From Oceanimonas smirnovii ATCC BAA-899 (GTDB lineage: Bacteria; Pseudomonadota; Gammaproteobacteria; Enterobacterales; Aeromonadaceae): a stretch of 64,000 nucleotides of DNA. Within the stretch, counting starts at the first letter, position 1. Every line of letters begins with the position of its first letter. Below, in pieces: positions 4,783 through 44,286 of this stretch. Position numbers and translations under genes: made by a program. The notes beneath the pieces were generated by a model. The model saw only the letters and a list, made by a program, of their open reading frames with translations, was not told where the DNA came from and ran no database searches. Where the stretch lies: assembly GCF_000381965.1 (NCBI RefSeq), contig NZ_KB908458.1:62001-126000 (forward strand), given 5' to 3'.

Positions 4783-4814
4783 AAAAGGGCCGGTGAATAA
4801 AGATTCACCAGCCC
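4783..4814 (-). terminator. rplL-rpoB intergenic attenuator
   Basis: On the minus strand a 12-bp stem (GGGCTGGTGAAT / ATTCACCGGCCC, one G-T pair) with a 4-nt loop is followed by TTTTGC. It lies about 40 bases after the rplL stop, where enterobacteria carry the partial terminator that lowers rpoBC transcription. A second inverted repeat (GAGAGG / CCTCTC, about 4742-4771) lies downstream and could be a processing hairpin. Confidence 0.75.
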
Positions 4815-4851
4815 TAGCCCGATTGCTCAGGCCGCTAAGCTATAGTCTAGC

Positions 4852-28790: not shown

Positions 28791-29053
28791 GTGCCCTTTA
28801 CGAACTTGTGGTTCGTTTCTCTGCGCTGTTGCCCTTCTGTTTAAAGTGCCGCGCTTGTGGTGCGCCCCGAACTGATAATCCGGCTTGCGACAGGGTCCGG
28901 TGATGCCGGCCTGCTGTTCCCGTTAAGGTGTAAACATAGTAACCCCAAGCCGTGAGTGAGTGGTTGCGAAGTCACCCTTTAAAATCATCCTTTTCGCAAT
29001 CATTCACCCCATATACACTATTAATTGAATAGTTGTTGTTATGGAGTGTGAAT
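28791..29053. other. Intergenic region before the Lrp-type gene
   Basis: No coding sequence is evident. Two small hairpins with a shared loop are present: CGAAC-TTGTG-GTTCG (28801-28815) and GCGC-TTGTGGT-GCGC (about 28851-28865). The last 100 bases are AT-rich (ATACACTATTAATTGAATAG) and probably contain the promoter of the regulator gene. Confidence 0.4.
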
Positions 29054-29539
29054 GTGAGCAAACTGATACAACTGGATCGCACCGACAGGCGCATTCTCGA
29101 CCTGATGCAACGCCATGGTCGCATCAGCAATCTGGAGCTGGCCGAGCGGGTTGGATTATCGCCTTCGCCCTGCTCACGCCGGGTAAAGGCGCTGGAAGAC
29201 GCTGGCCTGATTGCCGATCATGTCACCCTGCTCAACGCCGCCAAACTGGGGCTGACCCTGCAGGCCTATATTCATATCTCCCTCGACCGGCACACGCCGG
29301 AGCGTTTTGAGGCCTTTGATGCGGCCGTGCTGGGCTTTCCTGAAGTGCTGGAATGTGACCTGATCACCGGTACAGAAGCCGACTATCAGCTCAAGGTAAT
29401 AGTGCGCGATATGGAGCATTATCAGCAGTTTTTGCTGGGCAAGCTGACCCGGCTGGAAGGAGTGACCGGCGTACGCTCCAGCTTTGTGCTCAGGCGCATC
29501 AAGCACGATACAGCGCTGCCGCTGGATCATCTGGCTTGA
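29054..29539 (+). CDS. Lrp/AsnC-family transcriptional regulator
   Basis: A 161-residue feast/famine regulator: N-terminal helix-turn-helix (LDRTDRRILDLMQRHGRISN, then LAERVGLSPSPCSRRVKALE) and a C-terminal RAM ligand-binding domain with ECDLITGTEADYQLKV at about residues 107-122. I chose the GTG at 29054 because GGAG lies 7 bases upstream and the family begins just before LDRTD. It is convergent with kbl-tdh. Lrp regulates tdh in E. coli, but this protein is not Lrp itself by sequence, and a role in amino-acid catabolism is only suggested. Confidence 0.9.
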   Translation: MSKLIQLDRTDRRILDLMQRHGRISNLELAERVGLSPSPCSRRVKALEDAGLIADHVTLLNAAKLGLTLQAYIHISLDRHTPERFEAFDAAVLGFPEVLECDLITGTEADYQLKVIVRDMEHYQQFLLGKLTRLEGVTGVRSSFVLRRIKHDTALPLDHLA

Positions 29540-29601
29540 AGTCGGGGACTAGGGAATGGTGTAAAACAATTGCAGGCAACGAGTATGCATACAAAGAGGT
29601 T

Positions 29602-29697
29602 AAAGGGGGCTATTTCGCGACCGATCAAATGCCAGGGATGGCATTTGCCGAGCGACACAGGGAAGTGCTTGAAGTGTGTCGAGAAATAGCACCCTTT
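29602..29697 (+). repeat. Structured repeat, copy A (twin ANGGA-loop hairpins)
   Basis: Outer arms AAAGGGGGCTATTTCGCGAC (29602-29621) and its near-complement at 29678-29697 match at 18 of 20 positions. Between them are a perfect hairpin CAAATGCC-AGGGAT-GGCATTTG (29626-29647) and a short hairpin CAC-AGGGAA-GTG (29656-29667). Both hexaloops have the form ANGGAN. It lies 62 bases after the Lrp-type gene, in its sense orientation, and before the convergent tdh stop. Confidence 0.75.
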
Positions 29698-29733
29698 GGC
29701 CGACTTATTGCGGCATATCAGACAACTTGAAGC

Positions 29734-30759
29734 TTACTGCCAGTCGAGGATTACCTTGCCGGACTGGCCGGAGCGCATAATGTCAAAGCCCTGCTGGAAA
29801 TCATCCACCTTGAAATGGTGAGTGATGATGGGGCTGAGATCCAGGCCGGACTGGATTAAGCTGGCCATTTTGTACCAGGTTTCAAACATCTCGCGGCCAT
29901 AAATGCCCTTGAGCACCAGACCTTTAAAAATAACCTGAGTCCAGTCAATGGCCATATCAGACGGCGGTATACCCAGCATGGCCACCTTGCCGCCATGATT
30001 CATCTTGTCCAGCATATCCTGAAACGCCACCGGCACACCGGACATTTCCAGGCCCACATCAAAGCCTTCGGTCATGCCCAGCTCGGTCATCACATCACTC
30101 AGCTTTTCGGTGGCCACGTTCACCGCCCGGGTTACTCCCATCTTGCGGGCCAGCTCAAGGCGATATTCGTTTACATCGGTGATCACCACATGGCGGGCAC
30201 CCACATGGCGGGCTACGGCAGCGGCCATAATACCAATGGGGCCGGCACCGGTGATCAGCACATCTTCACCCACCAGATCGAACGACAGCGCTGTGTGCAC
30301 CGCATTACCAAAGGGGTCGAAAATGGCGGCCAGATCGTCAGACACTTCATCGGGCAGTTTGAAGGCATTGAAAGCCGGAATAACCAGATATTCCGCAAAG
30401 GCACCGTCACGGTTTACACCCACGCCCGAAGTATTACGGCACAGGTGCGTGCGACCGGCACGGCAGTTGCGGCAATGGCCGCAGGTAATGTGCCCCTCGC
30501 CTGATACTCTGTCGCCAATAGCAAAGCCACGCACTTCCTGGCCAATGGCCACCACTTCGCCCACATATTCGTGGCCGGTAACCATGGGCACCGGAATGGT
30601 ATTTTGTGACCATTCATCCCAGTTGTAGATATGAATATCGGTGCCGCAGATGGCGGTTTTACGAATTTTGATCAGCAGATCGTTATGACCCAGCTCGGGC
30701 TCGGGTACATCGGTCATCCAGATGCCGGGCTCGGCCTTCAGTTTTGCCAGTGCTTTCAT
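29734..30759 (-). CDS. tdh: L-threonine 3-dehydrogenase
   Basis: A zinc, NAD-dependent enzyme oxidising threonine to 2-amino-3-ketobutyrate. The 341-residue length equals E. coli Tdh. Catalytic zinc residues are in [17 protein letters not shown] (about 36-52) and GHEYVGEV; structural zinc cysteines are in [15 protein letters not shown]; the NAD-binding motif is [16 protein letters not shown] start at the ATG at 30759, preceded by GAGGAGAAAAAGC. It follows kbl by 11 bases. Confidence 0.97.
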
Positions 30760-30770
30760 GCTTTTTCTCC

Positions 30771-31961
30771 TCAAATCACGCCCAGTTCACGGCCAACGTC
30801 GGTAAAGGCCGCAATGGCCTTGTCCAGCTGCTCGCGGGTGTGGGCCGCCGACATCTGGGTGCGAATACGGGCCTGGCCTTTGGGCACCACCGGAAAGGAA
30901 AAGCCAATAACGTAAATACCTTTTTCCAGCAGCTTGTCGGCCATTTGTGAAGCCAGCGCCGCATCGCCCAGCATTACCGGAATAATGGCGTGATCCTTGC
31001 CGGCCAGGGTAAAGCCGGCAGCGGTCATTTGCTCTCTGAAATAAGCGCTGTTTTCTCTCACTTTTTGCCGCAGATCGTCACCGTTTTTCAGCATCTCCAG
31101 CACCTTGATGGAGGCCGCTACAATCGCCGGTGCCACCGAGTTGGAAAACAGATAAGGCCGTGAACGCTGGCGCAGCCAGTCGATCACTTCCTTTTTGCCC
31201 GAGGTATAGCCGCCTGAGGCACCACCCAATGCCTTGCCAAGAGTACCGGTAATAATATCGACGCGGTCCATCACTCCACAGAACTCATGAGTGCCCCGGC
31301 CCTGTTCACCCACAAAACCCACAGCGTGGGAGTCGTCCACCATCACCAGCGCATTATATTTGTCGGCCAGATCGCAAATGGCGCTCAGGTTGGCAATCAC
31401 GCCGTCCATGGAGAAAACACCATCAGTGGCAATCAGCTTGAAGCGGGCACCATCGGCCTCGGCCTGTTGCAGGCAGCTTTCCAGCTCGGCCATGTTGTTG
31501 TTGGCGTAGCGATAGCGTTTGGCCTTGCACAGACGCACACCGTCGATAATGGAAGCGTGGTTAAGCGCATCGGAAATAATGGCGTCTTCCGGGCCAAGAA
31601 GAGTTTCAAACAGGCCAGCGTTGGCATCAAAGCAGGAGGTATAAAGAATGGTGTCTTCCATACCGAGAAAAGACGACAACTCGCTTTCCAGCTGTTTGTG
31701 CAGATCCTGAGTGCCGCAGATAAAACGTACCGACGCCATGCCAAAACCATGGCTGTTCAGCCCCTGCTGTGCGGCTTGAACCAGGGCAGAATGGTTAGCC
31801 AGACCCAGATAGTTGTTGGCACAGAAGTTGATAACCTCCTGCTCACCCACGTGAATGGCAGCACTCTGGGGTGAACTGATCACCCGCTCCTGCTTGTAGA
31901 GACCTTCTGCCTTGATGTTTTCCAGCTGCTCAGCTAAATAAGCATAAAATGCCGACGACAT
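30771..31961 (-). CDS. kbl: 2-amino-3-ketobutyrate coenzyme A ligase
   Basis: A PLP enzyme that splits 2-amino-3-ketobutyrate with CoA into glycine and acetyl-CoA, taking the product of Tdh before it decays. The 396-residue protein belongs to the alpha-oxoamine synthase family, with [13 protein letters not shown] near residue 45, the PLP aspartate in [13 protein letters not shown] and the PLP lysine in [14 protein letters not shown] near residue 244. kbl and tdh form the standard threonine-degradation operon. Confidence 0.97.
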
Positions 31962-43974: not shown

Positions 43975-44090
43975 CAAAGCGGCAGCGCGGTTGCACTCCG
44001 CCGACACGCTACAAGTACTTCCATGTAACGCTCGAAAATGCCATCCGTGGCATTTTATGGTCGGCTCCGGCAATCCCCGCTGCCGCTTTG
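43975..44090 (-). repeat. Structured repeat, copy B (twin ANGGA-loop hairpins)
   Basis: Outer arms CAAAGCGGCAGCGCGG (43975-43990) and CCCCGCTGCCGCTTTG (44075-44090) pair at 15 of 16 positions; a middle stem pairs GCCGAC (44000-44005) with GTCGGC (44060-44065). Read on the minus strand, the cap holds AAAATGCC-ACGGAT-GGCATTTT (44056-44035) and TAC-ATGGAA-GTA (44027-44016). Both hexaloops fit ANGGAN. It lies in the coaD-mutM gap, sense to mutM. Confidence 0.75.
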
Positions 44091-44156
44091 AGAAGCATCT
44101 GTGCTGACTGTCGAATGCTAACCGTCAGCTCCTTGCTCACCTGAGGAGGACAAAGG

Positions 44157-44240
44157 GTGTCTGCTTCGCCGCGCCCTCTGCGCCAGGGAAGGCGCAGCGG
44201 AGCTCCCACGGATGGGTTTACGGCGTGCCGGCGAAGTAGT
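44157..44240 (+). repeat. Structured repeat, copy C (twin ANGGA-loop hairpins)
   Basis: CTTCGCCG (44164-44171) pairs with CGGCGAAG (44229-44236). Inside are a perfect 7-bp hairpin CTGCGCC-AGGGAA-GGCGCAG (44178-44197) and CCC-ACGGAT-GGG (44205-44216). Both loops fit ANGGAN. It is sense to coaD and faces copy B; the rest of 43947-44286 contains no gene. Confidence 0.65.
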
Positions 44241-44286
44241 GCACTTTGGCCGACGAGTATGCGCTTTATGACAAACGGCGGTTTTT

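Follow-up and report, generated by a model that had tools for sequence, protein, structure and literature searches.

The window analyzed here, a 64,000-nucleotide stretch of the Oceanimonas smirnovii ATCC BAA-899 genome, carries three copies of a dispersed, REP-like element that resembles TwoAYGGAY, and whose GGA-bearing strand is predicted, with a probability of roughly 55%, to be a CsrA-binding RNA. The element is very probably a structured single-strand element under selection. Its structure, copies, covariation, strand asymmetry, and loop conservation were observed directly; CsrA was named as the ligand mainly because the loops and their spacing agree with published ligand rules.

Copy A follows a putative Lrp/AsnC-type coding sequence in the same sense and faces a putative tdh-type dehydrogenase gene, named from sequence. 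The features of this locus and of the two other copies in the window are as follows.

29048..29539, + strand: upstream coding sequence, putative Lrp/AsnC-type, in sense with copy A
29573..29580, + strand: 5' flanking motif of copy A, CAGGCAAC, which many copies have at a fixed position, about -45 relative to the core
29602..29697, + strand: copy A (subfamily I), an outer stem around two ANGGA hairpins
29626-29647, + strand: hairpin 1 of copy A, CAAATGCC-AGGGAT-GGCATTTG, loop at 29634-29639, closing pair C-G
29656-29667, + strand: hairpin 2 of copy A, CAC-AGGGAA-GTG, loop at 29659-29664
29719..29726, + strand: 3' flanking motif of copy A, CAGACAAC, oriented like the 5' motif and lying at about +35 to +41 where other copies have it
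29734..30774, - strand: putative tdh-type dehydrogenase gene, convergent with copy A
43975..44090, - strand: copy B (subfamily II), core 44000-44065, outer arms 43975-44005 and 44060-44090
44142..44254, + strand: copy C (subfamily III), core 44168-44232, forming a divergent pair with copy B

In copy A, 18 of the 20 positions of the outer arms (29602-29621 with 29678-29697) are paired, and the arms enclose two ANGGAN hexaloops, AGGGAT and AGGGAA, as an earlier sequence-only reading of this DNA had described. Folded as RNA, copy A reaches -50.7 kcal/mol compared with -30.3 kcal/mol (sd 3.4) for shuffled sequences (z = -5.9), and none of 200 shuffles equaled it. Relative to shuffles of its own, the reverse strand does about as well (z = -6.5), so energy alone cannot assign the strand. 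CAGRCRA flanks many copies of this genome at a fixed distance, on both sides and in the same direction, and may be a target-site repeat or an element boundary. An Rfam search at gathering score gave no match on the element, and sub-threshold matches to microRNA families were rejected as artefacts of the long stems. Elsewhere in the window, the Rfam family P26 (Pseudomonas sRNA P26) matched 4787-4847 on the - strand with 40.5 bits (cut-off, 36).

An initial search used the hairpin-1 stem only, with the loop left free, and returned dozens of places. The element was present at 39 of them; loop 1 was ANGGAN in 39/39, and where hairpin 2 was of the ordinary kind, loop 2 was ANGGAN as well (36/36), on a CCC/GGG, TAC/GTA, or CAC/GTG stem. 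When this 3.28-Mb genome was searched with R1, a covariance model of the 67-base core, about 78 copies had E < 1e-4. They comprise subfamilies I (11 copies, including copy A), II (47, including copy B), III (12, including the copy at 44168-44232), and IV (2), and a variant, IIx (6), with a longer module in place of hairpin 2. Copy C scored 33.8 bits against a model built from the other copies, in keeping with the three copies counted earlier in the window. Its core and that of copy B are separated by 103 bases, and the genome holds 10 such divergent II/III pairs, 95 to 103 bases core to core. Conservation of ANGGA throughout the genome had been set beforehand as a test, and it held: the motif is kept in loop 1 of 74/78 copies and in loop 2 of 71/78, with a spacing of 23-25 nt from start to start in 67/67 intact copies. 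A loop has been lost in five ordinary copies of this genome and in 4 of 90 copies of the genus-mates G002 and G003.

Some copies depart further from the common form. The IIx sites of this genome (C7:64984, C9:38269, C7:38306, C9:109570, C9:1101, and C3:167980; L027, L030, and L031 among others) carry a double hairpin of about 100 nt, GGCGAGC..GCTCGCC plus an A/T-rich stem tipped by GAACATTAATTATGTTC, whose own stems are compensated. Three copies of G002 at orthologous sites (L233, L229, and L236) retain an ordinary hairpin 2. At L244 in G002, loop 1 is deleted and AAATGCCATGGCATTT is left, a decaying copy.

Paired positions change together. Relative to copy A, the outermost pair of hairpin 1 is A-T in copy B and the hairpin 2 stem is TAC/GTA, two compensated changes already noticed from the window itself, and among the copies the CAC/GTG stem of copy A covaries with CCC/GGG and TAC/GTA. 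It had been proposed that outer stems differ completely, but this does not hold for all copies; instead, subfamilies have diverged with compensation. Since shared ancestry within the subfamily alignments limits any claim of independent covariation, orthologous pairs and slid controls were added. In A4, which aligns 25 copies drawn from many genera, both partners changed in 13 of 15 stem pairs, and the covariation score was 0.745 compared with 0.207 when shuffled and at most 0.112 with partners slid by 1-3 columns. The letters invariant in both hairpins across genera are CANGGANG (C-ANGGAN-G), with the C-G closing pair present in 25/25 A4 copies in both hairpins. In a distant genome, the outer stems of ten copies contained 19 pairs in which both partners had changed.

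The orthologue set consisted of 16 copies at orthologous places in this genome and two genus-mates. The loop letters A, G, G, and A changed at 0/128 positions in this set, from which loci without one of the motifs (4/90) had been omitted beforehand, and the N positions changed at 17/64 (Fisher p ~2e-9). Twelve of 176 hairpin pairs changed, all on both sides, with none one-sided and none broken. Three of the 16 orthologues differ throughout hairpin 2, a pattern suggestive of conversion from one copy to another.

The two strands of the element are not equivalent. A G.T pair on one strand is an A.C pair on the other, so an excess of G.T indicates that selection acts on the single-stranded GGA strand. 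On that strand, G.T versus A.C was 13:0 (family I) and 33:4 (family II) in selected outer-stem columns, these being pairs that show both G-C and A-T types and that were picked by eye from the table; over all folded pairs, the counts were 36:2 and 110:6. A cruder arm alignment of the 78 copies of this genome gave 150:82 in the same direction, and 68 copies from other genomes, under a symmetric score, gave 75:16, again in the same direction in all six groups; the GGA strand has roughly five G.T mismatches for every A.C. Selection on structure, probably as RNA, had been suggested from the window; covariation and asymmetry bear out a selected single-stranded fold of the GGA strand, and RNA of that strand is the simplest reading of the molecule involved. 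Single-stranded DNA of the same strand would give an equal asymmetry.

Compensated stems could also arise without function. Template-switch correction is a mechanism that makes the arms of quasi-palindromes match, and during replication it would copy one arm onto the other. The outer stems in named genomes, about 30 bp long and mostly 90-96% Watson-Crick paired while the arms of different copies within one genome differ at 41-54% of ungapped positions, fit such a process, as do the orthologues that differ by entire, conversion-like hairpin-2 blocks, and template switching may contribute to the perfection of the outer stems. As an account of the element it is highly improbable, leaving unexplained both the invariant loop letters (0/128 against 17/64) and the excess of G.T over A.C.

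The habits of the element in the genome resemble those described for REP elements (PMC3733652). Like REP/BIME of the GTAG and CGTC families, it occurs in many intergenic copies, avoids divergent promoters, and forms inverted dimers spaced by about 100 bp; unlike them, it has a 64-nt core with a long variable outer stem and two ANGGA loops. It might be a mobile element that moves in the form of single-stranded DNA, in a REP/RAYT- or IS200/IS605-like manner, with the loops serving as transposase recognition letters and CsrA uninvolved. High and patchy copy number, the sharing of a recognizable tdh-side copy by only 3 of 22 tdh-bearing species, the direct CAGRCRA motifs at fixed distances, and the REP-like inverted dimers and preference for convergent or unidirectional genes (PMC3733652) speak for this explanation. 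However, a Y1/HUH transposase test of 31 loci found no RAYT association: none of these Y1 transposase loci has a complete element, and the one partial match lies at a contig end. Genome G298 is without any Y1 transposase yet has many copies, the conserved letters are those of the CsrA consensus, and the orthologues retain pairing and A-GGA after the species split, which a dead insertion need not do. We therefore consider transposition as single-stranded DNA an unlikely explanation. A RAYT/REPtron origin was rejected, as the sole Y1 transposase of this genome is IS605-style and transposase loci elsewhere are without a complete element. That transposase is an IS605-style tnpA (L041, C17:27158-27523) with an apparent tnpB-like gene beside it on the opposite strand.

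Gene context was counted for the 78 copies with a gene caller trained on this window. Thirty-three copies lie between convergent genes and five between divergent genes; of those between tandem genes, 21 run in sense and 19 in antisense orientation (14:12 for solitary copies). The elements avoid promoters and have no strand preference, and the strand bias relative to transcription that had been expected was not seen. Orientation statistics in named genomes were discarded, since the crude ORF caller used there placed 74 of 130 copies inside ORFs.

The tdh-type gene, present in 22 of 23 genomes of the genus, served to locate the orthologous site. A copy at the tdh end is common to this genome, G002, and G004, and in G004 the outer ends match but surround another core type. 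In G010, the same 3' flank adjoins a bare hairpin, AAAGGGCCTG-CCGAAA-CAGACCCTTT, and other genus-mates have nothing or other copies at this end. The suggestion that the element is a 3'-UTR target or decoy for the upstream Lrp-type transcript did not hold up: besides the even strand counts, the association is broken in two genus-mates. In the species of L144, the putative Lrp-type coding sequence adjoins tdh and the element is absent, which makes a role specific to that gene unlikely, and in G002, the element is present and the putative Lrp-type gene is not adjacent. Short tandem repeats (GGGGACTG, GGGAGACG, and CCGGAAG) occur near the tdh 3' end in several genus-mates (L138, L139, L147, and L148), those of L138 and L139 about 100-250 bases before the tdh end.

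Placement between convergent genes (33/78, with only 5 copies between divergent genes) is also what a transcription terminator or mRNA-end stabilizer would show, its loops being incidental, and related species have simple terminator-like hairpins at the tdh site (L139 and L144). No T-run was seen by eye at the ends of copy A, and either strand would do for such a function, yet the conserved loops and wobble asymmetry belong to one strand only. We regard this role as very unlikely to account for the element.

The reading of the GGA strand as a CsrA-binding RNA draws on the published properties of the ligand. CsrA/RsmE binds an ANGGAN hexaloop with flanking AC paired with GU, commonly on stems of at most 4 pairs, and a CsrA dimer bridges two sites 10-63 nt apart, best above 18 nt (PMC7652899). 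The element agrees with these dual-site rules in its ANGGAN hexaloops, C-G closure, and 23-25-nt spacing, and one copy has UACAGGGAUGU, matching 11 of 12 positions of the SELEX consensus. The proposal that the loops are of CsrA/RsmA type was thus strengthened by these rules and by the retention of ANGGA in this genome, in orthologues, and in other genera. Weighing against it are the loops lost in some copies, the replacement of hairpin 2 in six, the even strand counts between tandem genes, and one element-bearing genome, rated 98% complete, in which no CsrA match was found. On balance, our analysis leans toward CsrA as the ligand.

This genome has one CsrA-coding gene. CsrA was found in every element-bearing relative of the genus- and order-wide sample and in 59 of 63 wider element-bearing genomes; three of the four without a match are at most 88% complete, and the fourth, G255, is rated 98% complete. 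It was found also in most genomes without the element. As nearly all genomes encode CsrA, its presence discriminates nothing, and it was rejected as a discriminator.

In the proposed mechanism, the GGA strand as RNA would fold into a long stem of variable sequence topped by two short hairpins with C-G-closed ANGGAN hexaloops, which, at 23-25 nt apart, could be bridged by one CsrA/RsmA dimer. Copies would be transcribed by read-through, as antisense, or as transcripts of their own, and would then hold CsrA. With no strand bias between tandem genes, simple read-through would not make many GGA strands. Transcribed copies may serve as a pool of decoys dispersed over the genome, or may tether CsrA locally.

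Apart from TwoAYGGAY, our literature search found no paper on a dispersed CsrA-binding repeat. TwoAYGGAY (RF01731) has two hairpins with A-Y-GGA-Y loops and a poorly conserved outer stem, and CsrA was proposed as its ligand by motif matching (PMC4333381). In Rfam, it belongs to clan CL00106 with RsmY, and its architecture, two A-N-GGA-N loops in a variable outer stem, is that of the element. Some loci are scored jointly, on the same strand, by RF01731 and by R1 or R2 (G039, L101, and L127). Hairpin 2, however, has a long stem of about 15 bp in RF01731 and 3 bp plus a bulged 4 bp in the element; at the gathering score (43 bits), RF01731 gave 0 matches in the 23 genomes of the genus, and it did not match copy A at E up to 10. 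By the curated cut-off TwoAYGGAY is a different family, a relative or an analogue. Ysr224 (RF02770, a Yersinia sRNA) scored up to 51 bits on element loci, below its cut-off of 70, and matched the opposite strand (L275, L282, L114, and others), so RF02770 seems to model the antisense of the element family. CsrB/RsmZ-type sponge sRNAs likewise present paired ANGGA hairpin loops to CsrA dimers, but there the many sites belong to one or a few dedicated genes, whereas the element consists of many dispersed two-site units.

The search of this and related genomes that had been advised extended the family well beyond the window. All 22 other genomes of the genus matched R1, with 2 to 84 copies each, as did 9 of 29 genera in an order-wide sample. 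R2, a broader model searched against 369 gammaproteobacterial genomes of 272 genera, matched 74 genomes and 67 genera, with best E values mostly from 1e-8 to 1e-20; in its per-genome counts, a figure of 14 means at least 14. A pattern scan of named genomes has, among the matches listed, Oceanisphaera, Zobellella, Shewanella, Idiomarina, Alteromonas, Rheinheimera, Alishewanella, Cellvibrio, Marinobacter, Halopseudomonas, Pseudomonas, Stenotrophomonas, Xanthomonas, Erwinia, and Methylomonas.

The family is absent from catalogues as an RNA family on the correct strand. It is a DNA/RNA family in which the putative CsrA ligand motif supplies the only fixed letters and every stem drifts. A bolder view, which we hold as possible but doubtful, is that these elements form a class-wide mobile family of CsrA-binding RNAs with hypervariable, near-perfectly paired stems, dozens of copies per genome titrating or tethering CsrA, a global regulator, so that the repeat load of each genome tunes a central regulatory network. 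The scattered relatives could constitute a large, unrecognized pool of predicted CsrA-binding RNA. If the element does bind CsrA, REP-like repeats would gain a concrete protein partner, and many Gammaproteobacteria, Shewanella, Marinobacter, Stenotrophomonas, and Xanthomonas among them, would carry a large decoy pool that is absent from models of the Csr network.
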